This document shows, piece by piece, positions 3,650-18,956 of a DNA stretch of 64,000 nucleotides (positions are counted from its first letter, which is position 1; each line of letters opens with the position of its first letter). This DNA comes from Hyphomonadaceae bacterium (GTDB taxonomy: Bacteria > Pseudomonadota > Alphaproteobacteria > Caulobacterales > Hyphomonadaceae). The stretch lies in contig JAIXRO010000078.1 of NCBI GenBank assembly GCA_027485145.1, positions 1-64,000 of the forward strand. The letters run 5' to 3'. Below the pieces are notes generated by a model. The model worked only from the letters and a program-made list of their open reading frames with translations, did no database searches and was not told where the DNA came from. The position numbers were made by a program, and so were the translations under genes.

Positions 3650-4834
3650 TCATTCGTCTGTCCCCACGATACGAATTTCGATGCGGCGGTTCTGGGCGCG
3701 GCCTTCATCGGTGGCGTTGCTGCCGATGGGCCGCGACGGGCCATACCCGGCCGCGACGATACGGGCCGGTGAGACGCCGCGTTGTATGAGCGCGGCCCGG
3801 ACGGCTTCCGCCCGGCGGCGGCTGAGATCGAGATTCAGCTCTGTGCTGCCGGTGTTATCGGTATGTCCTTCGACGCGCAGAGTTCCTGGACAATCGGAGG
3901 CCGCCCGGGCGGTCAGATCGAGCAGAGCCGCTTTTGATGTCGCGATTCGGTCGCTGCCCGGATCAAACCCGATACGCGATGCCTCAAGCAAGCGGGCGAG
4001 CTCGCCTTCACAGGATTCAACAAGCTCCTTCGCCAGGATTTCCACGTCGCCGACCGATCCGAATGGCAGCGTCGCGCTCGCCATCTTGCGCACGCGTTCC
4101 GCTTCCCGCTCCGGGAGTTCGCAGCGCAGATTGAAGATTCTCGACGTGAAACTCGCAGTGCCGGCGTCGCACAGCGTCAGTGTTTCCACACCGCGCATCA
4201 TCGTCCCTCGCAATCCTTCGGGCGGCGGCGCACCGATCACTTCAAGATTGCTTTCGACAGTCTCGATCCGGCTAGGCACGGACTTGCGGGCGGCGACCAC
4301 GACGGCGTCGCGCGTCGCGATATCGGGCACGCGTCCATCGAGGGTCAGCTTGCCACCTGACAGTCGGAACAGGAATTCGGGCTCGTCGTTTTCGGCCCTC
4401 GTCACAGACTCAGTCATCGGGTTGCTTGCCTGATCGGGTCGTGTGCCTGCCGCGGCGAAATCACTGGTAACGCGTGTGGCGGGCCGCGCCGTTCCGAGCC
4501 AGGTCGGAGCTCGGGCTGTTCGGATCGCTTCAAGAACCCGTTCGCCGGCCGCCGTCGTGGGCGGAATTCCGTTCACCTTGACCCACTGGCCCGATACATC
4601 GACTTCGGCCCAATCGGCTCCCGCATCGGCAACGGCCCGTTTGGCGGCGCTTCGCACTTCGTCTTCGATGCTGTGTTTTGCGAACGAGGTCCAGGAAATC
4701 AGAGTCAGCAAGGCCAGACCAAGCAGCGGAAGCAATCCGTACGGAAAAAATGGTGTCGCATCACCAGACACCCGCCGGAAGCGGCGGACGGTCTGCGTCT
4801 TCGACTCGTTCGCTGTCTCCCAGCTGAAACTCAT
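3650..4834 (-). CDS. OmpA family protein with N-terminal TM segment and BON-like region
   Basis: C-terminal 'LRVEGHTDNTGSTELNLDLSRRRAEAVRAALIQRGVSPARIVAAGYGPSRPIGSNATDEGRAQNRRIEIRI' (OmpA peptidoglycan-binding domain). Confidence 0.88.
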   Translation of the reverse strand: MSFSWETANESKTQTVRRFRRVSGDATPFFPYGLLPLLGLALLTLISWTSFAKHSIEDEVRSAAKRAVADAGADWAEVDVSGQWVKVNGIPPTTAAGERVLEAIRTARAPTWLGTARPATRVTSDFAAAGTRPDQASNPMTESVTRAENDEPEFLFRLSGGKLTLDGRVPDIATRDAVVVAARKSVPSRIETVESNLEVIGAPPPEGLRGTMMRGVETLTLCDAGTASFTSRIFNLRCELPEREAERVRKMASATLPFGSVGDVEILAKELVESCEGELARLLEASRIGFDPGSDRIATSKAALLDLTARAASDCPGTLRVEGHTDNTGSTELNLDLSRRRAEAVRAALIQRGVSPARIVAAGYGPSRPIGSNATDEGRAQNRRIEIRIVGTDE

Positions 4835-5222: not shown

Positions 5223-5939
5223 ATGAGCAGGACGTCCTCCCAAGCGCCGCACGCACATCCGGATACCGGCGTAGATCCGTTCGCATTGGCCGGATTTGAA
5301 GGTCATCCGCAGGCGCTTGCCATGCACGGCGATCGTGCGCGTCATCGGCATGGCCCGTCTGAACTGACCGGCGAACAACACGCGCGGCTCGGCCGGCTCC
5401 GGTCCACTGCACACCGCGCCGAGATGGAGACGTCATTTCATTCGCGGAGGAATCTCGTGTCGGCGCTGACCGGTTCGGCGCCGAACAACCTCCAGATATC
5501 GCACCTGCCCGATGGCGCCCCCCGATTGATCAGGCCAGAAGGCTGGGCCATGTCACTCTCTCACAAAGGCCCGTGGACAGTGGTCGCGCTTGCGCTCGTG
5601 CCGGCAAAGATCGGTGTGGACGTTGAACTCGTTCGTGATCTCGATTGGCGCCCCATGCTGAAAATGATCTGCAGCGATCACGAACGCGAAGCGTTCGAGA
5701 CGAATGGTTTCGAGGGTCAGACCGCACTGACGAGTTTTATCCGTATGTGGACGATCAAGGAAGCAGTTCTCAAATCGACAACCCAGGGATTTCGCGCAGG
5801 CCCGAAAGGCGTCTCAACGCCGCTCGATATCCTGACAAGTCCGGGGAGGGGCGAACTGTCCGCCTTCGGGTCCGCTTATGAGTTCTGGTCTGCCGATCTC
5901 GGGGAGGCAATCTTCAGCCTCGCCCGCCAACGCCACTAG
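5223..5939 (+). CDS. 4'-phosphopantetheinyl transferase (Sfp-type), probably serving the adjacent Pfa ACPs
   Basis: 'MSLSHKGPWTVVALALVPAKIGVDVELVRDLDWRPML...SFIRMWTIKEAVLKSTTQGF' matches the PPTase motifs GVDVE and WTxKEAxLK. ORF may start upstream at 5187 or 5190. Confidence 0.85.
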   Translation: MSRTSSQAPHAHPDTGVDPFALAGFEGHPQALAMHGDRARHRHGPSELTGEQHARLGRLRSTAHRAEMETSFHSRRNLVSALTGSAPNNLQISHLPDGAPRLIRPEGWAMSLSHKGPWTVVALALVPAKIGVDVELVRDLDWRPMLKMICSDHEREAFETNGFEGQTALTSFIRMWTIKEAVLKSTTQGFRAGPKGVSTPLDILTSPGRGELSAFGSAYEFWSADLGEAIFSLARQRH

Positions 5940-8900
5940 TCCGGTTTCCGGAACGCGATCGAGAGTGGATTCGCCTCATAAATCCGCAGGCCGTCGCACC
6001 AGAGCGACCCGCGCGCGGTCGCCAGCACGCGGGCGCTCGTTTGCTCAAGGCTCAAGAGTTCGATCACTCCTGTTACCTCTCGCTTTTCCGGTGTGACCTG
6101 ACCGCGGTATGACCATTTCACGCGCTCACCTACAGCCGGGGTTTCGGCGACCAGTCCGTGAAGCTCTAGCGTGGGGACCTTCAGTAAGACCGCGCGCATG
6201 AGTAGTTGCTCGAGCGCATCCAGCCCCAGCGAACCGGGTTGTACAGGATCGTTGAAGAAGTGCGCCTTGAAGTACCAGGCGCGTGGATCAACGCTCTGCC
6301 GCCCACGGATGACGCCAAGACCGGCCGCACCACCCGCTGGGTCAAAATAGTCTGCGCTGTCGAGCATGCGGAGCTGACCCGAGGCGAGCCGGGGATCGAC
6401 GGGTGAAAGGTCTGCAGCCGAACGGGGAAGTACGAGATAGCTGCGGTCGGCTTCCGTGATCGGCAGGCCCGCCTGGCGTACCAACGCGGCTGCCGGGAAG
6501 AACCCGAACCGGGTGTTAAGCTCCATCACGGGCTCACCAGATTTCAGCTGCGCGACAACGTCGAACGCCACGATGGTCATCGGACCGACCTTCGAGAAAC
6601 TGGTCAGCGTCGTCCGGACACGGATCGTTCCGTCACGGGGGCCGATCATCCGGTGGATCTTGCCGTCACCTTCAAGATTGCGAAACCGGTCTCCGCCCTC
6701 CAGCGCGAACCCGCAATGACTGGCGAGCCAGCCGCAGGGCTGCAGGATGATTTCATTCAACACCGCAAATGGCATGAAGCCGGAGCGATTGTCAGCGAAA
6801 TACCAGGCATCCGGAGGCACATCGTATTCTGCAAGAATGCTCGCGCCGGTTTCCTGCACGCCCGGGCGCGTCGAGACATCCAACACGCGCGACATCACGT
6901 GATAGGGTGGTTGCGGAAGCCGGGGCACGCGGCCGCCGAGATCGAAGCGATTGTACATCTCTCCGAATGCTGCCGAAGGCGGACCATTTGCGCAGTCCAG
7001 CAGCGCGGCCTGATCGCCGCGGCTCTCCTTGTTCGGCCCCACACGAAGCGGCGACGCTGAGACACGGGGCGCCGGCCAATTGCGACGCAACTGAATCCCG
7101 AACCGGGGACAGTAAAAGACTTTCCGCCCATCAGATCGTGCGAGCAGCGAAGCAAACACTTTTGGCGTTTCACCGAGGATCACCTCGTCAATGAACACTT
7201 CGTAGATGATGTCGTGATCGGTGTCGGGAATGACCTGACCGCGGCAGATGAATTTGGCGGTTTCGCCCGGTATGGGCTCGAACACATAGCCATCCCGGTC
7301 CTGCGTGAGACCCAGGGCAGCGGCATAGAATTCAAGTGCCTGCACTGCCGCCTCGGCCATCAGCGTCCCGGGCATGCAGGGATCGTTGTGGAAGTGGCCC
7401 TCATAGAACCAGGCATCCGTTGGCACATGTGCATTCGCGCAAAGGTATCCGCGGCTCCACGGACCGCCAGTGGGCTCAAACGCCGTGACCGTATCGAAGA
7501 AGGTCAGCTTGCCCGCCGGCAGGTGAGGCGGGATCGAATGGGCGGCGCACAGCTCGAAACCCTTTCCGAAGCAGGCGAGGGCGTCCCCGTTCCGGAAAGC
7601 CGAAACGTCTGCCTTTGAAAAACTGCGCTTGGCGCTGGCCCGGCCGACATCAATCGGTTCGATTTCGCGCGTCGGCGGAGGCGACGTTTCTGCGTCCCAC
7701 GCAACACCTTTGCCTGAGGCGAGCTCTGCATCTGTGAAGAAGCCGGCCTGACCTTGACGCACCGAAAAGGCGGGGCGCCCATTCGCCATGCAGTCATACT
7801 GAAAGAAGAACATGCGCACACCGGCAAAAGTGGCGTGCTGGGTAATCTCGATCTGGAATTTCAGGGTCTCGCCCGCATTCGGCAAACCGCCTTCATGGAA
7901 GGTGATCTCGCACCCCAGAAGGCGGTAAACGCGTTCGCTCTGGTTCTTCAGATCCGCGCCCATCCACGCGATCAGGGTTAGGTCGGCTTGACCACACTCA
8001 ATCAGCGGACCAGGGCGCACACGGCCGTCATGCGTATACCACTCGCCAGGCGCGATATCGGTCTCGGTCCAGATCACTCCGGCGCCTTCAACGCCGGCAT
8101 CGGCGTCTATACCGGTAATGCGGTCAACCAGCAGAAGCGGCGCCGCGGGTAGCCGGCATTGGCGCTCGAATGCATCTTGCCCGAGGAACGCGGACCCGAA
8201 GAAGTCAGACATCTTCCCGCGGGCCGAGGCTTCGACTTCCGGCCGCGACCAGGATTTGCCGACAGGCGGCCGCGACGCCAGAGGCGTGCGACCCGACAGA
8301 ACACCGGTTGGAGCTGGCGACTTTTCCAACGTTTTGCCGGGCGGGGGCGGAAAGGGTATCCGACCATCCGGAACGATGGCGCGGACTTGAGGCGGATACA
8401 CCGGCGCCGGCAATCGCGGTGCCAGCGGCAAGCCGGTCGATACGGAGTCTTCGGCTGGCAGACGGGGAGACGTGTGATGCGCCGGGCGCGAGACCTTGTA
8501 GGGCGCTGCGTGATGCCACGGATGTGAGCGCGCCTCATCGAGACGCGCGGCGATCCGGTCGATCCGCACCTTGAAGCCTTCAGCATACAGACGGGCGGCG
8601 AGTTCAGCGACTTGAGCAAGTTCCGAGTTTTCAACCCGGTCCGTGGCCACAGCCAGATGCTGCTTGCCGGCCAATATCTGGCCAATACTCTGCGTGAGTG
8701 TGTCGCGCGGCCCAAGTTCGACGAAGGTGCGCACGCCATCGTCCCATGCCTGACGGATCGTGGCCGGGAAATCGACAGTCGCCACGGCCTGCTTCGTCAA
8801 CATGTCAGCCACGCGCGCCCGCGAGGGCACATAAGCGGCGTTGATGGCATTGGCATAAAGGCGCACGTTGCTCGCGCGCGACACAGGCCGCGAATGCAAT

Positions 8901-11900
8901 TCGCGCCATTTTTCCTCGAACGGCTTCATGGCATTGGCGTGAACAACGAGGTGCTGGTGCATCAGCGTCCCCGTACCGGGTCCGAATTGCTGGAAAAACG
9001 CGCGACAAGCGTCGGCCGGACCGCCGATCATCAGGTCGTCGTCGGTGTAGATGATCGTGATCTCGACATGCGGCGCGAACCGGAGTGCGTCCCGTACGCG
9101 CGCAACCGAGGCACGGACACGCCAATTGGTCCAGTCGGACGGCACGTTCGGCCCCCAGGCTTCGCCGGCTGTTTCGAATGCGCCGCCCAGATGGCGTTCG
9201 TACATCGCCGCCTTCTCGATATCATCCAGAAGGCCGCCCATGTCCTTCCAGTAGCCGAAGGCAAAGAGCGCATTGCTTTCGCCGAGCGAGAGACCGATGG
9301 CGGCGTGCGGCTCCAGTTCGAGTACGTCCCGAAGGAGAATGGCGTGCGCCTGGGTGACGAGGGAAACCGCACAAAGCTGCTCGAACTCCGAGAGCGAGGA
9401 CTTGGCAAGAAGGTGCGTCATGGCCGACGCCTTCGGGATGTCGCCGAGGCGCTCGGCGACTTCCGGAAACGCCATCAACAAGCCGCGACCCATCCGCGGA
9501 TAGGAGGCCGCCGAACCTGTCAGGGCGAAGGCCAGCTCACCCTCCGGCTCTCTCTCTCCCAGCCAGACGCCTGGCGCTTCAGCCGATCGTTTTGCTTCCA
9601 GCGCGTGGATGGCCGTCTGGATTTTCGCCGTCAGGTCAGCTTCGTCTTTCGCGAGAATGGCAATACGGACCCGGCCCGCTCCTCCGGTCCTTCCGGCTTT
9701 CAACTTGGCGGCAAGCGCAGCGCGGTTGGCGGCTGCAGCGAACACAAGGCGCGGCGTTGGGCGGAGCATATCCGGCGCTGGTGCCGGCGGGGCGGCGACC
9801 ACGGTCACTTGTAAAGGTTGGGACGTCACGGAGTTGCCAGACGCGACTTGAATTCTCCGCGCAGACGCATCGAGGGCTACGGCGCCGCCTTCGTCCTGCA
9901 AGACGTGCGAACGGACAGCAAGCGAGAGACCGACCGCGAGGTCAAACAAACCGGAAGACGCGCCAGCTTCGCCATAAACGGATTGAAGGGCTGCAACTCG
10001 GCTTTGGCCTGCACCAGACCACGAAATGTTCGTAACGGTGCCCTTGATCTGATCTCCCGCAGCTTCTGCTTCTGACTTGCGCTTCAGCACAAGCGCAACG
10101 GCCAAGTCCGCGGCATCTCCGGCGGGAAAAACAGCGCCCGCAAAGTCCGCACTAGTCACGATCGCAAGATCAAGCGTGCCCGCCTGCAGCGCGGCAACGG
10201 CCGCGTCGAACGCGGCGAGACCCGAGCTTTCTTCAGCCGCGATGGCGAAGCCCTGTCCACGAAAATCTTCGCAGGACGTGATCCTGTTTGCGGCCATGTT
10301 CGCCATGGCGCCAAGCACGTCGGCGGCGACGAGAGCCGGCGCAACGGCGTCAAGCTCGGCTTCGATGTCGTTGCGCCCCTCGGAGATCAGCTTGGCTTTC
10401 AGGCGCTCGCGTATCGGCCAGCGGGCGGAATCGTCAGCGCAGCGAATACCGGCGAACACGCCGCTACGCTCGGCGGAAACAGGCGTGACGCCGTAAAGCG
10501 CCATCTGTGAAACATCCAGGACCGCCAGCTGATGCGCTTCGGCCCTCAGAAGGTCAGACGGCGGAATCCGGCTCTTGACGGGATCGGCGCCAACAAGCTC
10601 GGCGCGCCGGACAGGTGTCGCGGGCGAATTGATCAGTCGGCGGATGACACTGCGCTCACCGCGATCTGTCCCGGCCTTCATACCGATGCCAACGATCACG
10701 ATGTCGTCCGGCTCCGGCGCGGCGTCCGTTGCATGGCCATTGATGTAGCCGCGCACTGGCTCGTACGCCTCAAGGATCAGGTGGGAATTGTTGCCGCCGA
10801 AGCCAAAATTGCTGATCGCGGCGCGGCGCGGCCTATCATGGCTTCTTTTCCATGCCTGCACGTCTGTCAGCGGCAAGAGACCGGTCTCAGCCAGTGGTGC
10901 GATCAACGTCCCATCCAGCGGCATGGGCGGCAGTTCTTCCGCTTCCATCGCCGCCGTCAACTTGAGGACACTGGCGAGGCCAGCCGCCGTGATCAGATGG
11001 CCAGTGTTGGCCTTCAATGATCCGATGGGGAGTTCGCGGCGCGATCCGAAGACCGCAACAGCCGACTGGATTTCAACACTGTCGCCGACTGGCGTTCCCG
11101 TCGCGTGGCATTCGAGAAAATCGACCGAACCGGGCTCGATTTGCGCCATTTGATAGGCGCGGTTCATCGCCTCGGCCTGGCCTCCCGAATCCGGAGCCAG
11201 AAAGCCCTTGCGCCGGCCGTCATTGGAGAGGCCGATGCCGCGGATAACGGCGCGTACGCGATCACTTTTCTTGACGTCCGAGAGACGTTTCAACACGACA
11301 GCCGCAGCGCCCTCGGACGGCACCAGTCCATCCGCACCCTGAATGAATGGGCGGGACCGTCCAGACGGGCTAAGCGCTTTCAGCGCATCAAATCCGATGT
11401 GCAGGATCAGATTGTCAGCGGCGTTGACCGCGCCGACCAGCGCGATGTCGATCTGACCGATGGCCAGTTTCCGGCACGCAATCTCCAACGCGTACAAGGA
11501 GGAAGCGCAGGCTGCATCAAGCGCAAGCGCAGGGCCCTCCGCTCCGATCATCCGGGCGATGAGGTGGGCGGGCATGCCTGAATTCAAAGTATCTGAAAGC
11601 GGGCGCTGCGTCCGGCCGGTGCGCCAGACCTCTTCCGCATAGTCCACCTTGGCGTGGCTGGGGTAGCAAAGATTGGCAAGGAAAACGCCGCGTTTTGCGG
11701 GCGCCGTCTTTTCGGCACCGGGGACATTCGACCACGCGTCCCAAGCGGCTTGCAAAGGCCAACGGTGAACCGGATCGAGCTCGGGGGCCGTCATGCCATC
11801 AAGCCGTCTATAGCCTTCGTGCTGCGTCGCCACCTGATCCACCCGGCCAGAGACGTAGCGGGCCGGTGAAGACGCTGTCCCCGCAAGGCCGAGTTCCGAC

Positions 11901-12022
11901 GGTTCCACGGGCCGCGTGACAACGCGTTTTTCGCGGACAACGCTCCAGAGTTCGCTTGGCGTCGCGGCGCCCGGCAAGACGCAAGCTTCGGAAACGATGG
12001 CGATTGGTGCAAACGCGCTCAT
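5936..12022 (-). CDS. Pfa-type synthase subunit: KS-CLF-AT-DH-DH (PfaC-like with an embedded AT)
   Basis: KS 'LDAACASSLYALEIACRKL', 'ECHATGTPVGD', 'GSLKANTGHLITAAG'; second KS-like domain without catalytic Cys (CLF); AT-like 'AIGLSLGESNALFAFGYW'; FabA-like hotdog motifs 'WFYEGHFHNDPCMPGTLMAEAAVQALEFY' and 'WYFKAHFFNDPVQPGSLGLDALEQLLM'. ATG at 12022 overlaps the KR stop (ATGA). Confidence 0.9.
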   Translation of the reverse strand: MSAFAPIAIVSEACVLPGAATPSELWSVVREKRVVTRPVEPSELGLAGTASSPARYVSGRVDQVATQHEGYRRLDGMTAPELDPVHRWPLQAAWDAWSNVPGAEKTAPAKRGVFLANLCYPSHAKVDYAEEVWRTGRTQRPLSDTLNSGMPAHLIARMIGAEGPALALDAACASSLYALEIACRKLAIGQIDIALVGAVNAADNLILHIGFDALKALSPSGRSRPFIQGADGLVPSEGAAAVVLKRLSDVKKSDRVRAVIRGIGLSNDGRRKGFLAPDSGGQAEAMNRAYQMAQIEPGSVDFLECHATGTPVGDSVEIQSAVAVFGSRRELPIGSLKANTGHLITAAGLASVLKLTAAMEAEELPPMPLDGTLIAPLAETGLLPLTDVQAWKRSHDRPRRAAISNFGFGGNNSHLILEAYEPVRGYINGHATDAAPEPDDIVIVGIGMKAGTDRGERSVIRRLINSPATPVRRAELVGADPVKSRIPPSDLLRAEAHQLAVLDVSQMALYGVTPVSAERSGVFAGIRCADDSARWPIRERLKAKLISEGRNDIEAELDAVAPALVAADVLGAMANMAANRITSCEDFRGQGFAIAAEESSGLAAFDAAVAALQAGTLDLAIVTSADFAGAVFPAGDAADLAVALVLKRKSEAEAAGDQIKGTVTNISWSGAGQSRVAALQSVYGEAGASSGLFDLAVGLSLAVRSHVLQDEGGAVALDASARRIQVASGNSVTSQPLQVTVVAAPPAPAPDMLRPTPRLVFAAAANRAALAAKLKAGRTGGAGRVRIAILAKDEADLTAKIQTAIHALEAKRSAEAPGVWLGEREPEGELAFALTGSAASYPRMGRGLLMAFPEVAERLGDIPKASAMTHLLAKSSLSEFEQLCAVSLVTQAHAILLRDVLELEPHAAIGLSLGESNALFAFGYWKDMGGLLDDIEKAAMYERHLGGAFETAGEAWGPNVPSDWTNWRVRASVARVRDALRFAPHVEITIIYTDDDLMIGGPADACRAFFQQFGPGTGTLMHQHLVVHANAMKPFEEKWRELHSRPVSRASNVRLYANAINAAYVPSRARVADMLTKQAVATVDFPATIRQAWDDGVRTFVELGPRDTLTQSIGQILAGKQHLAVATDRVENSELAQVAELAARLYAEGFKVRIDRIAARLDEARSHPWHHAAPYKVSRPAHHTSPRLPAEDSVSTGLPLAPRLPAPVYPPQVRAIVPDGRIPFPPPPGKTLEKSPAPTGVLSGRTPLASRPPVGKSWSRPEVEASARGKMSDFFGSAFLGQDAFERQCRLPAAPLLLVDRITGIDADAGVEGAGVIWTETDIAPGEWYTHDGRVRPGPLIECGQADLTLIAWMGADLKNQSERVYRLLGCEITFHEGGLPNAGETLKFQIEITQHATFAGVRMFFFQYDCMANGRPAFSVRQGQAGFFTDAELASGKGVAWDAETSPPPTREIEPIDVGRASAKRSFSKADVSAFRNGDALACFGKGFELCAAHSIPPHLPAGKLTFFDTVTAFEPTGGPWSRGYLCANAHVPTDAWFYEGHFHNDPCMPGTLMAEAAVQALEFYAAALGLTQDRDGYVFEPIPGETAKFICRGQVIPDTDHDIIYEVFIDEVILGETPKVFASLLARSDGRKVFYCPRFGIQLRRNWPAPRVSASPLRVGPNKESRGDQAALLDCANGPPSAAFGEMYNRFDLGGRVPRLPQPPYHVMSRVLDVSTRPGVQETGASILAEYDVPPDAWYFADNRSGFMPFAVLNEIILQPCGWLASHCGFALEGGDRFRNLEGDGKIHRMIGPRDGTIRVRTTLTSFSKVGPMTIVAFDVVAQLKSGEPVMELNTRFGFFPAAALVRQAGLPITEADRSYLVLPRSAADLSPVDPRLASGQLRMLDSADYFDPAGGAAGLGVIRGRQSVDPRAWYFKAHFFNDPVQPGSLGLDALEQLLMRAVLLKVPTLELHGLVAETPAVGERVKWSYRGQVTPEKREVTGVIELLSLEQTSARVLATARGSLWCDGLRIYEANPLSIAFRKPD

Positions 12023-13368
12023 GCCGTCGCCCAAGATTTGCCGACGACGAGTTCGATCTGGCTTTTGTCACCTGCCAGCAGCTCGTTCGCAAAAATACGC
12101 GCGCCTTCACGGATCGGGATCAATGGAATGCCTTGTGTTTCAAAATGACTGGCAAGGGCGCCGTCCACCATTCCGCCCGCCCACGGGCCCCAATGGAAAA
12201 CCTTCACGCGCGCCGATGGGTAAGACTGTGCAAGCGAGCGGCCTGCGCTTGCAAGCAACGCGTTGGCCATCGCGTAATCCGATTGCCCCTTGTTTCCGAA
12301 GAATGCGGCGGCGGAGGAAAAAAACGCGATATGACTTAGCTTTGCCGGATCAAGCGTGGCCAGAATGTTCATCAGCCCGTCCACCTTCGGCGCGAACACG
12401 CGGCGCAATTCAGCCTCGGTCTTGTCGTTGGCCAGTCGATCTGCCAGCACGCCGGCGCCGTGGACGAGACCGGTGATCTTGCCATACTTCTTTTGCGCCT
12501 GATCCAGTGCCTCCGACACTGCCGTCGCGTTGCCGGCATCCAGCGCAATGTACTGCGCATCCGCGCCCGTCTCACGGATCGCGGCGAGCGTTTCCCGGAT
12601 CTCGGCACCGGCGAGCAGGCCTCGGGCCGTCTGATCGATGGCCGCCGGTGTGACGCGTTCCCCGGCCTCGCGGGCGCGCTCCACGAGCAGGCCACGCAGC
12701 GCTTTCAGGTCTGAGACAGATGGCAGATCATCCGGCCACGGTGTTTCAGCTGACCGCCCGGCTAGCCATATCCTGCCGCCTGCTACCCGCGCCAGCTCAA
12801 TGGCGCAGGCGGCGGTAACGCCGCGAGCGCCGCCCGTGACCAGCCAGACGCCGGGATCGGCATCCGGCACACCGTTCGGCGGCAAAAGCGAAGCGCCAGG
12901 TTCCGCCGCAAGCAACGTGCCGTCAGCCGAAATCGCCCCATCGCCATACCCGCGGGCAATCCCTGCGGCTACTGCGTCCGCGACTTTGCCGGTCACGGTC
13001 CAGGCGACTGTCTGCGTACTGATCCATTCCTTCCGGAGGGTACGGCTAAGACCTTCGAGCCCCGAGAGCGACCCGGCGCGCTGGAGAATGACAACTACGC
13101 CGTCATCCCGGCGCGCCGCCTTGGCCGCTTGCAACACAGCCCAGTGACGCGCGGCAGGTTCGTCAGAGCGGAGACCTTCGGTGACGACCACCGCGTCAGC
13201 CGAGTGCGAGGGCTGCGCAACAATGCGAGCCGCAAATCCTTGAGCTGACAAAACCTGTTCCAGCGCGCTCGCGGCTGACGGGTCCGCGTTCGTGATCTCG
13301 ATGACTGCGCCCGGTGGCAGGCGTAACACCGGCGTTGCGGCTCCTTCGGACCAGATGACGGGCCGCAC
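12019..13368 (-). CDS. Ketoreductase ORF corresponding to the C-terminal KR domain of PfaA
   Basis: 'VWLVTGGARGVTAACAIELARVAGG' and 'LVHGAGVLADRLANDKTEAELRRVFAPKVDGLMNIL...FFSSAAAFFGNKGQSDYAMANALL' (PKS-type KR). Only a GTG start without clear SD; probably expressed at least partly by fusion, see findings. Confidence 0.85.
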   Translation of the reverse strand: MRPVIWSEGAATPVLRLPPGAVIEITNADPSAASALEQVLSAQGFAARIVAQPSHSADAVVVTEGLRSDEPAARHWAVLQAAKAARRDDGVVVILQRAGSLSGLEGLSRTLRKEWISTQTVAWTVTGKVADAVAAGIARGYGDGAISADGTLLAAEPGASLLPPNGVPDADPGVWLVTGGARGVTAACAIELARVAGGRIWLAGRSAETPWPDDLPSVSDLKALRGLLVERAREAGERVTPAAIDQTARGLLAGAEIRETLAAIRETGADAQYIALDAGNATAVSEALDQAQKKYGKITGLVHGAGVLADRLANDKTEAELRRVFAPKVDGLMNILATLDPAKLSHIAFFSSAAAFFGNKGQSDYAMANALLASAGRSLAQSYPSARVKVFHWGPWAGGMVDGALASHFETQGIPLIPIREGARIFANELLAGDKSQIELVVGKSWATA

Positions 13369-13407
13369 GTCGCACGTGTAAGGTGCGGCGTCAGCTCGGG
13401 GCAGGTG

Positions 13408-13455
13408 GGGACGATGGGAAGCCCGTACCTCCCCGTCATCCCTCAGCCGAAAAAA
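13408..13455 (-). promoter_or_regulatory. Candidate programmed -1 ribosomal frameshift element (slippery T_TTT_TTC, 6-nt spacer, stem-loop)
   Basis: Minus strand GAT TTT TTC GGC TGA followed by GGGATGACGGGGA-(GGTACGGGC)-TTCCCATCGTCCC. Heptamer at 13455-13449, stem arms at 13442-13430 and 13420-13408. Confidence 0.55.
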
Positions 13456-16400
13456 TCGGCGATTTTCCGGATCGTGCGAAGCTCGGCAAGGTGTTCGGGA
13501 TCTACTTCCGGCAAGGATGGATACTTGTCGCGCAGCGAGGACAGAATCTCTACCTGCTTGATGGAATCCACACCCAATTCGCCTTCAAGGTCCATGTCGT
13601 CTTCCAGCATGTCAGGCGGATAGCCGGTCTTTTCAGCAATCAGGGCACGGATCACATCCGGCGAAACAGTCAGGCTGGAGGCCGGAGGCGCGCTCACCGC
13701 TTTGACTTCAACTTTCACAGGCGCGGCGGCCGCTTTCGCTGCGCCCGGCGTAGCCGCCGCAATCATGGCGGCGATAGCTGCGATCGTGCGCAGTTCCACG
13801 AGGCGTTCGGGTTCGATTTCCGGCAGATGCGGAAGCCGGTCGCGCAGCGAGGACAGGATTTCGACCTGCTTGATCGAATCCACGCCGAGTTCGCCTTCAA
13901 GATCCATATCGGCATCAAGCATATCGGGCGGATAACCGGTTTTCTCAGAAACGATCGCGCGCACGATCGCGGCTGCGTCCATGTCTGGCGCTGCGGCTTG
14001 CGCCTTCGGCGCGCCAGGCACGGGAACAGGTGCGGGCGGCGCCGCAGCTTTTGGCGGCTCGGGCACAAAGGCGTGCGCGCCGCCGGCGCCGTTGGCTTTC
14101 GGCTTCGGAGATTCGGGCGGTGCGGATGGCGCGGCCGACGCTGCAGGCGCATGGGCCGCCGGTTGCGCAACCGGGACAGGGGCTGCAGCACGCGGCGCCG
14201 GAAGACGCTGTGGCTCCTGGGAAATGCTGCCGGCCTGCCCGAGGAGCGCCGCCGCGGCATTCAGGTAGGCTTTGTGGCCCTCGGCAAGTGCATTCAGGTA
14301 ATCTGAATGGCGAAGCGAGACTTCCTGCCAGATTCGTTCGACCGGCGACGAGATTTCGATGGGCCCACTCGCTGGCGGAACCGAAAGTTGGGATGCCGGA
14401 GCGGCGTGCCGGTCGTTCTGATCGGACATGGAGGGTTCGTTCCTTTGAGACTTGGGGGATGCAGATGGCGAAAGGCTGGCCGAGGCGGGTTGAGCCGTTG
14501 TGTTCGGAGGCGCGCGGCCGGCTGCGCCGTTCTTCGGCGGGTAGGGCCTGTCGTGATTTGCGCCCGTAAGGAACACGGCATGCCGCGAGGGCGCAGGCTT
14601 GGGTTCAGGCGCAGGGCAATCGGCGTAAAGCGCGGCAAGATCCAGTTTCAGTCCGGACACGGACAAGGCACCCAGCACTGATAGGAACTGCGCCACACCG
14701 TTGGTGCGCTTGTTGTCGAGAGACAGTGCGACGTAGTCACGGCCCGCGAGCGTGTCCGACACCAGGCCCGACACGACATTGCCGGGCCCGACTTCCACGA
14801 AGCAGCGGGCCCCCGCTGCATACATGGCTTCGACCTGTTCGCGGAAACGCACAGGCGAGGCAATCTGGGAGGCCAAGGCGCTGGCGAGATCTTTTGACGC
14901 CGCCTTGTAGGGCTGCGCCGTCGCGTTCGCGTACACCGGAAGGGCGGGACGTTTCAGGCGCAAGTCTTCGAGCGCTTTTCGGAAGGGGGCAACCGCGGGT
15001 TCGACGATGGATGAATGGAAGGCCGTCGCGACCGGCAGTTTACGCGCCTTGATACCTTCTTCGGCACAGCGTTGCTCCGCCAATTGGATGACATCAACAG
15101 CGCCAGAGAGCACGACCTGGCTGGGCCCATTGTCATTGGCAATCACGAGTCCCCCGCCGATCGATCGCACCAACGGCTCGATCCGGCTAGCGGGCGCCTG
15201 TACCGCCAGCATGGCGCCTTGGGTCGTCTGCGCGGCACGTGCCATCTCGCGGCCTCGCGCGGCGGCGATGGTGAGTGCGGCGTCTCGGTCAACGGCGCCC
15301 GCATAATGCAGCGCCATGATTTCACCGAAGCTGTGCCCGCCGGTCATTTCGGCTTCGAGGCCGAGCGCTTCGAGCAACGCCAGATGCGAAAGCGCCACGG
15401 CCGCAATCGACGGCTGAGCGTTTTCCATCTGGGTCAGGCGCTGTTGCTGACTACCAAACTCGACCTGATCAAACGCCGCGGGCGGGAACGCCAGCTTGTG
15501 GAGCTTCAGCGGGCCGGTAACCGGATGGCTCGCCGCCAGGTCCCAGACCGCGCGGGCCGCGGGGAACGCAAGGGCCAGGTCAGATCCCATACCCGGATAC
15601 TGACTGCCCTGACCCGAAAACAGGAAAGCAATCTTTCCAGCGTCGGGCGTTCTAACAGAGGCCGAGCAACCTTGCGGCAGCGGCGCGGTGCCAAGGGACC
15701 CATCCTTCAGTTGCGCAGCGAGCTTTGAGGCCTTCGCAGCAAGTTCGTCCGAATTGGCAGCCACGATGGCGGCGCGCGCCGGTGCCTTGGCGTCGAAGGC
15801 CGCATGAGAAGCCGCGGCTTCAAAGGCGAAGGCATCCTCCGGCGGAGGCGCGTCGCCGTGTCCGGCGAGTCTGGATGCCAACTCTTCCGCGTTTGGAGCC
15901 GAATACAGAAACAGCTCTGCGGGATGCACGCGGGCGGGATGCGCTGCCGTGGCGCCTGTGTATTCCTCGAGCGTGACGTGGAAGTTGCTGCCACCGAATC
16001 CGAACGAGCTGACGGAGGCGCGGCGCGGGCGAGAAGATGCCGTGATCCAGGGCCGTGCTTCTGTGTTGACATAGAAGCAGGCGCTGTCGCGGATCGCGTC
16101 TGCTGGCTCCTCGATCTTGATCGTTGGCGGCAAGACTTTGCGGCGCAGAGATTCAACCGCCTTCAGGAGGCTCGCGGCGCCGGCGGCGGCTTTCGTGTGG
16201 CCGATCTGCGACTTGACGGATCCAACCGCGCACCAGGGGCCTTCACCGGCGTCCGCTTCACTGAATACGAGGTGCAGGCCTTCGATTTCGGCCTTGTCGC
16301 CGGCGCGCGTACCCGTGCCGTGCGCTTCCACAAGATCGACCGAATCCGGACCATAGCCAGCCTGTTCATAGGCCCGCCGCAAGGCGCGCGCCTGACCAGA

Positions 16401-17369
16401 CGGGAGCGGCGTGTAGATCGCCGTTCCCTTGCCGTCCGAGCCGCCGCCGATACCACGGATCAAGGCGTGGATCGTGTTGCCGTCGCGTTCGGCATCCTCA
16501 AGCCGGCGCAGCGCCAGCATGCCAATGCCTTCGCCCAGCATCGTGCCGTCAGAATTGTTCGAGAACGGACGGCAATCGCCCGTCGGCGAAAGGGCGGGCG
16601 TCTTCGAGAAGCACATGAACATCAGGATGTCGTTCAGCGCGTCCACGCCGCCGGTCAGCACCATGTCGGAGTCGCCCGCGCGCAGTTCGTGCATGGCGAT
16701 ATGAAGCGCCGACAGGCTCGAGGCACACGCCGCATCTGTCACATAGTTGCTGCCGCCCAGATCGAGGCGGTTCGCGATGCGGCCCGCCACCACGTTGCCG
16801 AGCAGTCCCGGAAACGTGCTCTCTTTCCACTCGGCGTAATGATTCTCGATCCGCTTGGCGATCGCCTGAACATCGCTCTCTGCGAGACCGGACTGGCGCA
16901 GGCCATTCACCCAGGCGGGGCGTTGCAACCGGCCCGCCATATGCGCGGTAAGCTCGGTCGCCGAGGCCACGCCGAGGATCACGCTCGTGCGCGACCGGTC
17001 GATCTTGCCGCCACTGCCGCGCTCCGCATCGTCAAGCGTCATTTTCGCGGCGACGAGCGCCAGCAATTGCGCAGAGTCTGTCGTCTGCAGCTGCGCAGGC
17101 GGAATGCCGAACGCGAGCGGATCAAAAGCGACGGGCGACAGGAACCCGCCGCGCCGGCCGTAAGTCTTGTCCGGCGTCAAGGGATTGGCGTCGTAGTAGT
17201 CGTCGATGAGCCAGTGCGTCTCCGGCGTATCGCTCAGCAGATCGCGCGCCTCGAAGATATCCCGCCAGAAACCAGTTGTGTCTCCGCGTCCTGGAAATAT
17301 GGCCCCCATGCCGACGATGGCAATCGGTTCGGCGGCGCGCTTGGGCGTGGCGTTTCGGCGTTCGGTCAT
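13443..17369 (-). CDS. Pfa-type synthase subunit: KS-AT-ACP-ACP (PfaA-like, KR in the next ORF)
   Basis: KS 'VTDAACASSLSALHIAMHELRAGDSDMVLTGG', 'EAHGTGTRAGD', 'SVKSQIGHTKAAAGAASL'; AT 'FLFSGQGSQYPGMGS', 'MTGGHSFGEIMALHYAG'; two 'GELGVDSIKQVEILSSLRD' ACP motifs. Confidence 0.92.
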   Translation of the reverse strand: MTERRNATPKRAAEPIAIVGMGAIFPGRGDTTGFWRDIFEARDLLSDTPETHWLIDDYYDANPLTPDKTYGRRGGFLSPVAFDPLAFGIPPAQLQTTDSAQLLALVAAKMTLDDAERGSGGKIDRSRTSVILGVASATELTAHMAGRLQRPAWVNGLRQSGLAESDVQAIAKRIENHYAEWKESTFPGLLGNVVAGRIANRLDLGGSNYVTDAACASSLSALHIAMHELRAGDSDMVLTGGVDALNDILMFMCFSKTPALSPTGDCRPFSNNSDGTMLGEGIGMLALRRLEDAERDGNTIHALIRGIGGGSDGKGTAIYTPLPSGQARALRRAYEQAGYGPDSVDLVEAHGTGTRAGDKAEIEGLHLVFSEADAGEGPWCAVGSVKSQIGHTKAAAGAASLLKAVESLRRKVLPPTIKIEEPADAIRDSACFYVNTEARPWITASSRPRRASVSSFGFGGSNFHVTLEEYTGATAAHPARVHPAELFLYSAPNAEELASRLAGHGDAPPPEDAFAFEAAASHAAFDAKAPARAAIVAANSDELAAKASKLAAQLKDGSLGTAPLPQGCSASVRTPDAGKIAFLFSGQGSQYPGMGSDLALAFPAARAVWDLAASHPVTGPLKLHKLAFPPAAFDQVEFGSQQQRLTQMENAQPSIAAVALSHLALLEALGLEAEMTGGHSFGEIMALHYAGAVDRDAALTIAAARGREMARAAQTTQGAMLAVQAPASRIEPLVRSIGGGLVIANDNGPSQVVLSGAVDVIQLAEQRCAEEGIKARKLPVATAFHSSIVEPAVAPFRKALEDLRLKRPALPVYANATAQPYKAASKDLASALASQIASPVRFREQVEAMYAAGARCFVEVGPGNVVSGLVSDTLAGRDYVALSLDNKRTNGVAQFLSVLGALSVSGLKLDLAALYADCPAPEPKPAPSRHAVFLTGANHDRPYPPKNGAAGRAPPNTTAQPASASLSPSASPKSQRNEPSMSDQNDRHAAPASQLSVPPASGPIEISSPVERIWQEVSLRHSDYLNALAEGHKAYLNAAAALLGQAGSISQEPQRLPAPRAAAPVPVAQPAAHAPAASAAPSAPPESPKPKANGAGGAHAFVPEPPKAAAPPAPVPVPGAPKAQAAAPDMDAAAIVRAIVSEKTGYPPDMLDADMDLEGELGVDSIKQVEILSSLRDRLPHLPEIEPERLVELRTIAAIAAMIAAATPGAAKAAAAPVKVEVKAVSAPPASSLTVSPDVIRALIAEKTGYPPDMLEDDMDLEGELGVDSIKQVEILSSLRDKYPSLPEVDPEHLAELRTIRKIADFFG
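13446..13970 (-). repeat. Tandem ACP domains (ACP1 about 13761-13970, ACP2 about 13446-13655) with an Ala/Pro-rich linker
   Basis: Nearly identical 'EKTGYPPDMLxxDMDLEGELGVDSIKQVEILSSLRD' in two 70-aa units separated by 35 aa. Confidence 0.92.
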
Positions 17370-17372
17370 CGG

Positions 17373-18956
17373 TTACTCAAATAGACGGGGTGTGTAGGAA
17401 AAAAACTGCGACGGCACGGCAAGGCCCGCAGACCGGAGCTGTGCCGCGCGCGTGACGCGCGCCGCGCCTTCCAGCAGATTTAATGCGATCTGACGCACCG
17501 TGCGGTTCTCGACCGGCTCGAGCGGCGTTCCGGCCACCCATTCGTTGAACGCGCCCATCGCCGGTCCGCACCAGATCTGATAATCAGCGGTGCGCCCCGG
17601 TTCGCCCTCCCGCGCCCATTGAGCGCCCTGAAACAGGTAGCGCCGGGCAACGAGCGCGAGGCGCTTGTTGCCGTCAGATTCGGCTTTCTTGGCTTCGGCC
17701 GGATTGACGCGCCGAATGTAAGTTTGGGTCGCAGACCAGGCCGACTCGAAGGGTTCGCCGAGAACGTCATCGATCCATTTGCGGTCGGCAGCGGACACGC
17801 TCTCATAGCTTGCGCCGCTGCGATAAAACCCGTGCAGCTTTTTCCCCCGCATCGCGAACAGCGTGCCACGCTTCAGCACCTGCACCTCAACGCCTTGTTC
17901 GAACATGTCGGCGGCAGGCGCCATCGCCACATCGGCCGGCCCAGCCTTGGCAAGCAGCCTACGCCCGGCTTCCGACAGTCCGGATTCCACCGCACTTTGA
18001 TTGACCGAGCCTGTCAGCACGTAAGCGGCGCCCATCTGGAAAGCCGCAGCAACAGACGACGGGGTCGCGATACCGCCGGCCAATCCGATCCGGATCGCCG
18101 TCTCGTCAATTCCATGCCGGGCGCAGACCCTCGCGCGCGCAGCGCTGAGTGAACTGAATAGGACGGATGCGGGGCGATTGTCGGTATGGCCACCGGAATC
18201 GGATTCCGCGGTGATCTCGGCCGCGACCGGCACTTGGGCGGCAAGGTCTGCCTGCGCCTGCGTGATCTTGCCGGCATCCACCAGCTCTCGCAGCATCTTC
18301 TCGGGAGCAGGCGCCATGAACGGTTCGGCGACTTCGGCGCGAGACACCTTTGCGAACAGGTGATTGCGCCGCTCGATCCCGCCATCGGCGCGCCGCGAGA
18401 GTCCAAGCGCGGTGTAGCGAACGACGTCCGGCGTAAGACGCATGAACGCCGACGCCGAGACACGGCGCACGCCTTCGGCCAGGAACAGGTCAACGACCGC
18501 GGCTTCCTGCCCCGGTTCCTGCGGTGAATGGATCAGATTCGCGCCCCAGGCGTGATCACCGGGTCCCAGCGCAGCGCGGATCTCGCGTACACCGGCGCGG
18601 ATCTCATCCAGCGGCAATCCAGCGCTCCCATAGAATCCGATGCACCCGGCGCGAACCGCTTCGATCACCATCCTGGGCGTGGCGATACCGCGGGCCATTT
18701 CGCCGACCACATAGCAGAATCTTGCGGGATGCTCTGACAGCAGCGCCCGGTCACCCAGCCACTCGGGATAGATCGGTGGCAGCCGGCACGCGTTCACCGA
18801 TTTTGGCAGGTCTTCGCCGATCGCCACCAATGCCGGCGGTTTCGCCAGATCGGCGGTAAGCCAAACAGGAGCGCGCGGTGTTTCCACGGCGCTTTTGATC
18901 AGATCCGGCACGCGATGTCTGCCCTTCTGGCTAGGCCCGTTCCGAGCGCCCATCAT
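17373..18956 (-). CDS. PfaD-type enoyl reductase / nitronate monooxygenase-like FMN protein
   Basis: 'FCYVVGEMARGIATPRMVIEAVRAGCIGFYGSAGLPLDEI', 'GLAGGIATPSSVAAAFQMGAAYVLTGSVNQSAVESG', 'MFEQGVEVQVLKRGTLFAMRGKKLHGFYRSGASYE'. Confidence 0.9.
   Translation of the reverse strand: MMGARNGPSQKGRHRVPDLIKSAVETPRAPVWLTADLAKPPALVAIGEDLPKSVNACRLPPIYPEWLGDRALLSEHPARFCYVVGEMARGIATPRMVIEAVRAGCIGFYGSAGLPLDEIRAGVREIRAALGPGDHAWGANLIHSPQEPGQEAAVVDLFLAEGVRRVSASAFMRLTPDVVRYTALGLSRRADGGIERRNHLFAKVSRAEVAEPFMAPAPEKMLRELVDAGKITQAQADLAAQVPVAAEITAESDSGGHTDNRPASVLFSSLSAARARVCARHGIDETAIRIGLAGGIATPSSVAAAFQMGAAYVLTGSVNQSAVESGLSEAGRRLLAKAGPADVAMAPAADMFEQGVEVQVLKRGTLFAMRGKKLHGFYRSGASYESVSAADRKWIDDVLGEPFESAWSATQTYIRRVNPAEAKKAESDGNKRLALVARRYLFQGAQWAREGEPGRTADYQIWCGPAMGAFNEWVAGTPLEPVENRTVRQIALNLLEGAARVTRAAQLRSAGLAVPSQFFSYTPRLFE

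Follow-up and report, generated by a model that had tools for sequence, protein, structure and literature searches.

The pfaA gene of the Hyphomonas group very probably carries a programmed -1 ribosomal frameshift signal, by which a single mRNA would give a polyunsaturated fatty acid (PUFA) synthase with and without its ketoreductase (KR) domain. In the proposed mechanism, ribosomes that stay in frame would read GAT TTT TTY NNN stop and release a KS-AT-ACP2 protein of about 1308 aa. A fraction of the ribosomes would be paused by a hairpin whose base lies 6 nt past a slippery heptamer; both tRNA-Phe would slip back by one base on U_UUU_UUY, and reading would continue in the -1 frame. The shifted ribosomes would thus make a KS-AT-ACP2-KR protein of about 1784 aa, i.e., the ancestral PfaA layout. 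By comparing genomes, we demonstrated the presence of the signal and its conservation, frozen synonymous sites, a covarying stem, a -1 frame that is already coding ahead of any start codon, and fused outgroup genes, and we regard the conserved recoding signal in pfaA as real on these grounds. The slippage itself, its rate and the product mixture, which would set the dose of KR relative to KS-AT-ACP, are what we infer from them.

The pfa operon and its split pfaA gene

In the window (i.e., the whole stretch of 64,000 nucleotides that was analyzed), the pfaA ORF contains one ketoacyl-synt, one Acyl_transf_1 and two PP-binding domains and scores above the curated cut-off of TIGR02813 (PfaA), and the KR ORF matches the KR part of the same model (Table 1). 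The pfaC-like gene contains KS, FabA-like dehydratase and weak AT domains. Judged by these matches, the two ORFs are the parts of a PfaA-type PUFA synthase with a predicted PUFA product. Indeed, KS-AT-ACPn and KR are present in an operon with PfaC and PfaD, as in this type of synthase; one chain in one frame, which is usual for the type and not defining, is replaced by a split gene in all 55 genomes compared.

Table 1. Coordinates of the pfa operon and of the elements of the candidate signal in the window.
Feature	Position	Strand	Evidence
pfaA 0-frame ORF, KS-AT-ACP-ACP, 1308 aa, stop TGA	13443..17369	minus	domain matches and TIGR02813
Slippery heptamer T_TTT_TTC, 0-frame phase X_XXY_YYZ	13449..13455	minus	TTTTTT[CT] in 55/55 genomes
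0-frame stop TGA, one codon past the heptamer	13443..13445	minus	stop in 55/55 genomes
GC-rich hairpin, 35 nt, putative frameshift stimulator, 6 nt past the heptamer	13408..13442	minus	
ORF in the -1 frame, running from the slip site through linker and KR, 476 codons and stop	12019..13449	minus	
GTG, first start codon of the KR ORF, without SD, start not conserved	13366..13368	minus	
pfaC-like gene (KS-CLF-AT-DH type)	5936..12022	minus	
pfaD (enoyl reductase), operon gene upstream of pfaA	17373..18956	minus	TIGR02814 above cut-off

Read from 13457 downwards on the minus strand, the junction is GAT TTT TTC GGC TGA GGGATGACGGGGAGGTACGGGCTTCCCATCGTCCC, with T_TTT_TTC in the 0-frame phase at the end of the pfaA ORF, as the initial annotation had described; one codon separates the heptamer from the stop, and the hairpin begins immediately behind the stop. 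The pattern TTTTTTY-NNN-TRR-GGG occurs only once in the whole 3.98-Mb genome. Two more T7C runs are found on the minus strand of the window, at 12317-12324 in the KR gene and at 17398-17405 near the end of pfaD, both in the wrong phase for tandem -1 slippage.

Using the last ACP as a query against 105 genomes of the family, we recovered 54 relatives, which belong to three genus codes and include seven single-contig genomes; together with the window genome, they form the set of 55. In 54/54 relatives, the split site is identical, the ACP ORF ending at the same codon. The initial annotation had put a sequence error (A6 instead of A7 on the forward strand) first among the things to exclude. One added T would indeed fuse the two frames, and outgroup genes are fused; however, a split shared by 54 other genomes with three different stop codons, none of them showing the A7 in-frame fusion, argues against a missing T, and the purifying selection acting on KR in the split genomes argues against a pseudogene. 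The break of a normally fused gene by assembly error or decay is hence refuted for the group, and its residual probability is negligible. Two longer ORFs, in G052 (1824 aa) and G068 (1436 aa), were considered as candidate fusions; the stop and the signal are present in each of them, and their extra length lies upstream.

Conservation of the slip site and of the hairpin

All 55 genomes keep TTTTTT[CT], exactly one sense codon, a stop and GGG. The heptamer, always in the in-phase X_XXY_YYZ register of a -1 frameshift site, is TTTTTTC in 17 genomes and TTTTTTT in 38, and no other in-phase heptamer of this type was found elsewhere in pfaA (about 68,900 codons in the 55 genomes). In E. coli, ribosomes are prone to shift on U_UUU_UUC as well as on U_UUU_UUU, and H_HH.U_UU.Y is among the most efficient heptamer classes there (PMC4066793). 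On the pfaA protein tree, the heptamer changed four times, always between these two forms, both slippery. The stop codon changed at least nine times and remained a stop every time (TGA in 21 genomes, TAG in 19, TAA in 15). Hence, the conservation on which the initial annotation had made its reading depend holds for the heptamer, for the presence of a stop and for a hairpin-forming sequence (55/55 for each), and fails for TGA itself; no relative keeps the two ORFs without heptamer and hairpin-forming sequence.

Synonymous sites at the junction are frozen. The first Phe codon of the slip site (TTT) shows 0 synonymous changes, versus 3-14 at the 21 other conserved Phe columns of the same gene and tree. 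The preceding Asp codon GAT, the T of which is the first base of the heptamer, also shows 0, the lowest value among 68 conserved two-fold columns, and the second Phe codon only alternates between TTT and TTC. For reference, TTT makes up 27% of the Phe codons in the pfaA ORFs (492/1829) and GAT 39% of the Asp codons (1526/3902).

A homopolymer run of 6-7 T as the conserved core could also suggest slippage of the RNA polymerase, which would add a U within the run, so that some mRNAs would encode the same fusion product in frame 0. However, the run stays at 6-7 T, and runs as short as these are usually poor polymerase slippage sites. Moreover, it ends in C in 17 genomes, and both the X_XXY_YYZ phase and the position of the hairpin, 6 nt downstream, are those expected for ribosomes. 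Where polymerase slippage has been described as stimulated by a stem-loop, this loop lies upstream of the site, as it is formed by the nascent RNA within the exit channel, adjacent to the hybrid (PMC5009743). Transcriptional slippage is thus highly improbable, and ribosomal frameshifting remains our preferred reading.

A stem after the stop codon had been proposed initially, with 12 of 13 positions paired around a 9-nt loop. Its position was confirmed and its detailed pairing was not, since RNAfold finds a somewhat better structure of 14 bp (7+7) with a small internal loop and a 4-nt loop (-22.3 kcal/mol). The spacing of 6 nt falls within the range of about 5-9 nt at which a downstream RNA structure is expected in -1 frameshifting, the stimulation itself being putative. 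The hairpin does not stand out from dinucleotide shuffles of the same 53 nt (z -1.1); what speaks for it is its position and its conservation. In a scan of the operon with 38-nt windows, the window after the stop is in the most stable 2% in 54/55 genomes (mean z -4.1), and the stability peaks exactly there, a displacement by 6 nt in either direction weakening the fold in almost every genome. The weakest hairpin is that of G066, in which about 10% of the operon windows fold equally well.

A hairpin-forming GC-rich sequence is present at the same place in 55/55 genomes, one of them (G048) having its 3' arm cut by a deletion. Most genomes have a hairpin of 35 nt, whereas one subgroup has 32 nt and G039, G043 and G065 have 37 nt; the 35-nt and 32-nt groups were aligned and analyzed separately. 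In the 35-nt group, two-sided changes, which the initial annotation had expected of a functional stem, occur in 10 of the 14 pairs (35 distinct rows). The covariation reaches 0.314, versus 0.190 +/- 0.016 in shuffles, and none of 500 shuffles attains this value; since the shuffles ignore relatedness, the comparison is supportive and gives no probability. Sliding the partner lowers every measure in this group, and RNAalifold recovers the outer stem unaided. The inner stem pairs imperfectly under one shared model (79% of cells paired), and the stem of the 32-nt group is nearly invariant. Substitutions in the hairpin segment show no codon-position bias, as expected where RNA structure is the constraint. 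No known structured RNA was matched in Rfam (E up to 0.5). We also considered an intrinsic terminator between pfaA and KR and rejected it, the hairpin being devoid of a U-tract and lying inside a conserved operon.

Entry into the KR frame

From the slip site, the -1 frame runs without a stop into KR, as the initial annotation had noticed; it stays open for 476 codons in the window, the open length is 467-502 codons in 52 genomes, and in two more the frame is still open where the contig ends (54/55). Upstream of the slip site, the -1 ORF contains no ATG, GTG or TTG in any of the 55 genomes, and in many of them a stop codon at the slip site itself closes it.

These observations bear on the possibility of two independent genes, in which KR would be started alone, from the GTG at 13368 or similar, or by termination-reinitiation behind the stop of pfaA, the heptamer and the hairpin being incidental. 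An ORF with a GTG start does exist, and split pfaA1/pfaA2 genes are known from Psychroflexus torquis (type D) and type H clusters (PMC3098273). However, this GTG, correctly identified in the initial annotation as the first start of the KR ORF and as lacking an SD, is not a constant feature. Indeed, the first in-frame start occurs at scattered positions between 3 and 321 nt into the -1 reading, about 20 genomes having a GTG near codon 27-28 like the window and a few an ATG near codon 17, and an SD-like 5-base run precedes it in G021 and G089 only.

More importantly, the stretch between the hairpin and the first start is already coding. In 13 non-overlapping close pairs (one skipped as too divergent; 178 codons), substitutions are distributed 12/6/26 over positions 1/2/3 of the -1-frame codons, and single changes are 22 synonymous to 10 nonsynonymous in the -1 frame, versus 4/29 and 5/26 in the two others. 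The sequence before the first KR start thus already evolves as -1-frame coding sequence. Two independent genes would leave this unexplained, as well as the frozen Phe1 and Asp codons, and we consider them very unlikely, if somewhat less so than polymerase slippage. The frozen slip codons, the codon that varies and yet stays a stop, and the coding before the start all argue for the programmed -1 frameshift that the initial annotation had put forward.

A -1 frame that is open and coding from the slip site, with no start of its own, is thus found throughout the set with one exception. In G048 (L073, junction around 4477-4529), the heptamer and the stop are kept, but the outer stem has lost its 3' part to a 32-nt deletion, which also moves KR into frame 0 behind a TAA, a situation unique among the 55 genomes. 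A ribosome that slips by -1 cannot reach KR in this arrangement. G048 represents either a decaying operon, a wrong assembly or another solution.

The frameshift may also affect the next gene. The pfaC ATG (12022-12020 in the window) overlaps the KR stop as ATGA, and an overlap of the pfaC ATG with the KR stop, usually ATGA, is present in most genomes. Because of this overlap, mainly shifted ribosomes would reach the pfaC start and re-initiate there, which suggests that PfaC translation is coupled to frameshifted ribosomes, and perhaps the shift also sets the PfaC level.

Known systems, fused relatives and possible role

The arrangement resembles that of dnaX by its X_XXY_YYZ tandem slippage followed by a simple stem-loop, and by products that differ in their C-terminal domains. 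In E. coli dnaX, the heptamer is A_AAA_AAG, an upstream Shine-Dalgarno element acts as a stimulator, and the shift gives the short form. In contrast, pfaA uses T_TTT_TTY and the shift would give the long form; no upstream SD-like stimulator of the motif set of PMC4066793 was found (0/55 genomes), this dnaX-type feature being optional and not defining. The hairpin is part of dnaX frameshifting (PMC5009743). Another likeness is with chlD of magnesium chelatase, a cellular enzyme gene with overlapping ORFs, a conserved slippery heptamer and a potential structure, from which two enzyme subunit forms are made (PMC9227772, PMC5009743); however, its heptamer is A_AAA_AAR, the enzyme is unrelated, and expression tests were done there. 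In IS3-type OrfA-OrfB, the shift also extends a protein into a downstream -1 ORF, and IS elements use U_UUU_UUC among other heptamers (PMC4066793), but these are mobile elements and not a metabolic megasynthase. Finally, in csoS2 of alpha-carboxysomes, a -1 shift is accompanied by a 3' stem-loop, a 5' Shine-Dalgarno stimulator being absent, and one large protein is made in a long and a short version (PMC5009743). In that system, a scaffold protein is truncated by the shift, whereas PfaA would gain a catalytic domain.

PfaA proteins (TIGR02813) share with the split gene the KS-AT-ACPn-KR order and the pfa operon, but elsewhere they are typically encoded by one ORF. The two-gene version of Psychroflexus torquis consists of KS-AT-ACP5 plus KR, and the paper describing it does not mention frameshifting (PMC3098273). 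In the openly accessible papers searched, we found no frameshifting described in PUFA, fatty acid or polyketide megasynthases or pfa genes, PfaA and split pfaA1/pfaA2 included, in line with what the initial annotation had supposed. The main text of a survey of prokaryotic frame transitions contains no match to fatty acid, acyl carrier or Hyphomonas (PMC3711429), and in a 2016 review we found no mention of polyketide or fatty acid. As far as we have seen, the mechanism is known and the host gene is new.

If the signal is real, a single gene yields the synthase in two forms, one of them lacking the ketoreductase, and RNA fixes their ratio. We give about even chances to the broader view that KR is an optional catalytic domain of a type I megasynthase, the shift rate setting both the share of KS-AT-ACP2 chains that bear KR and the amount of PfaC; translation would then tune the stoichiometry, and perhaps also how far the lipid product is reduced or how long its chain becomes. 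In automatic annotation, the gene would show up as a KS-AT-ACP2 protein and a KR whose start is misplaced, and expressing only one of the two in another host would not reproduce the native mixture. The subunit stoichiometry of Pfa synthases also becomes directly testable by reporter.

As the initial annotation had stated of PfaA in general, KS-AT-ACPn-KR stands on one chain in the outgroup homologues from other families of the order and class (one ORF, 1717-2130 aa), and gammaproteobacterial PfaA ORFs are fused too. Azospirillum lipoferum 4B plasmid p1 (L107) has the same operon order, pfaD - fused pfaA (1773 aa) - pfaC, and its PfaA aligns with the trans-frame product of the window through the junction (46% identity over 1805 positions). 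The fused layout looks ancestral in the lineage by this comparison. The 105 genomes of the family gave no close relative with a fused gene, and split versus fused is one change on the tree, all 55 split genes lying on one side of a single branch (support 100). A single origin of the frameshift signal, within a fused gene, is most likely, although the FastTree method and the long outgroup branches make it less certain than the other results.

A look-alike was found in Persicobacter psychrovividus plasmid pPP1 (L105, around 5330-5560), where a break separates the ACPs of pfaA from KR, which lies in a different frame. Its junction contains no TTTTTT[CT]-type slippery heptamer, and the sister strain Persicobacter sp. 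JZB09 (L106) has a fused ORF of 2519 aa; we consider this split as an unrelated break. Two MAG records titled Sulfopaludibacter and Acidobacteria (L032, L035) carry pfa operons of the Hyphomonas type, and their titles look wrong.
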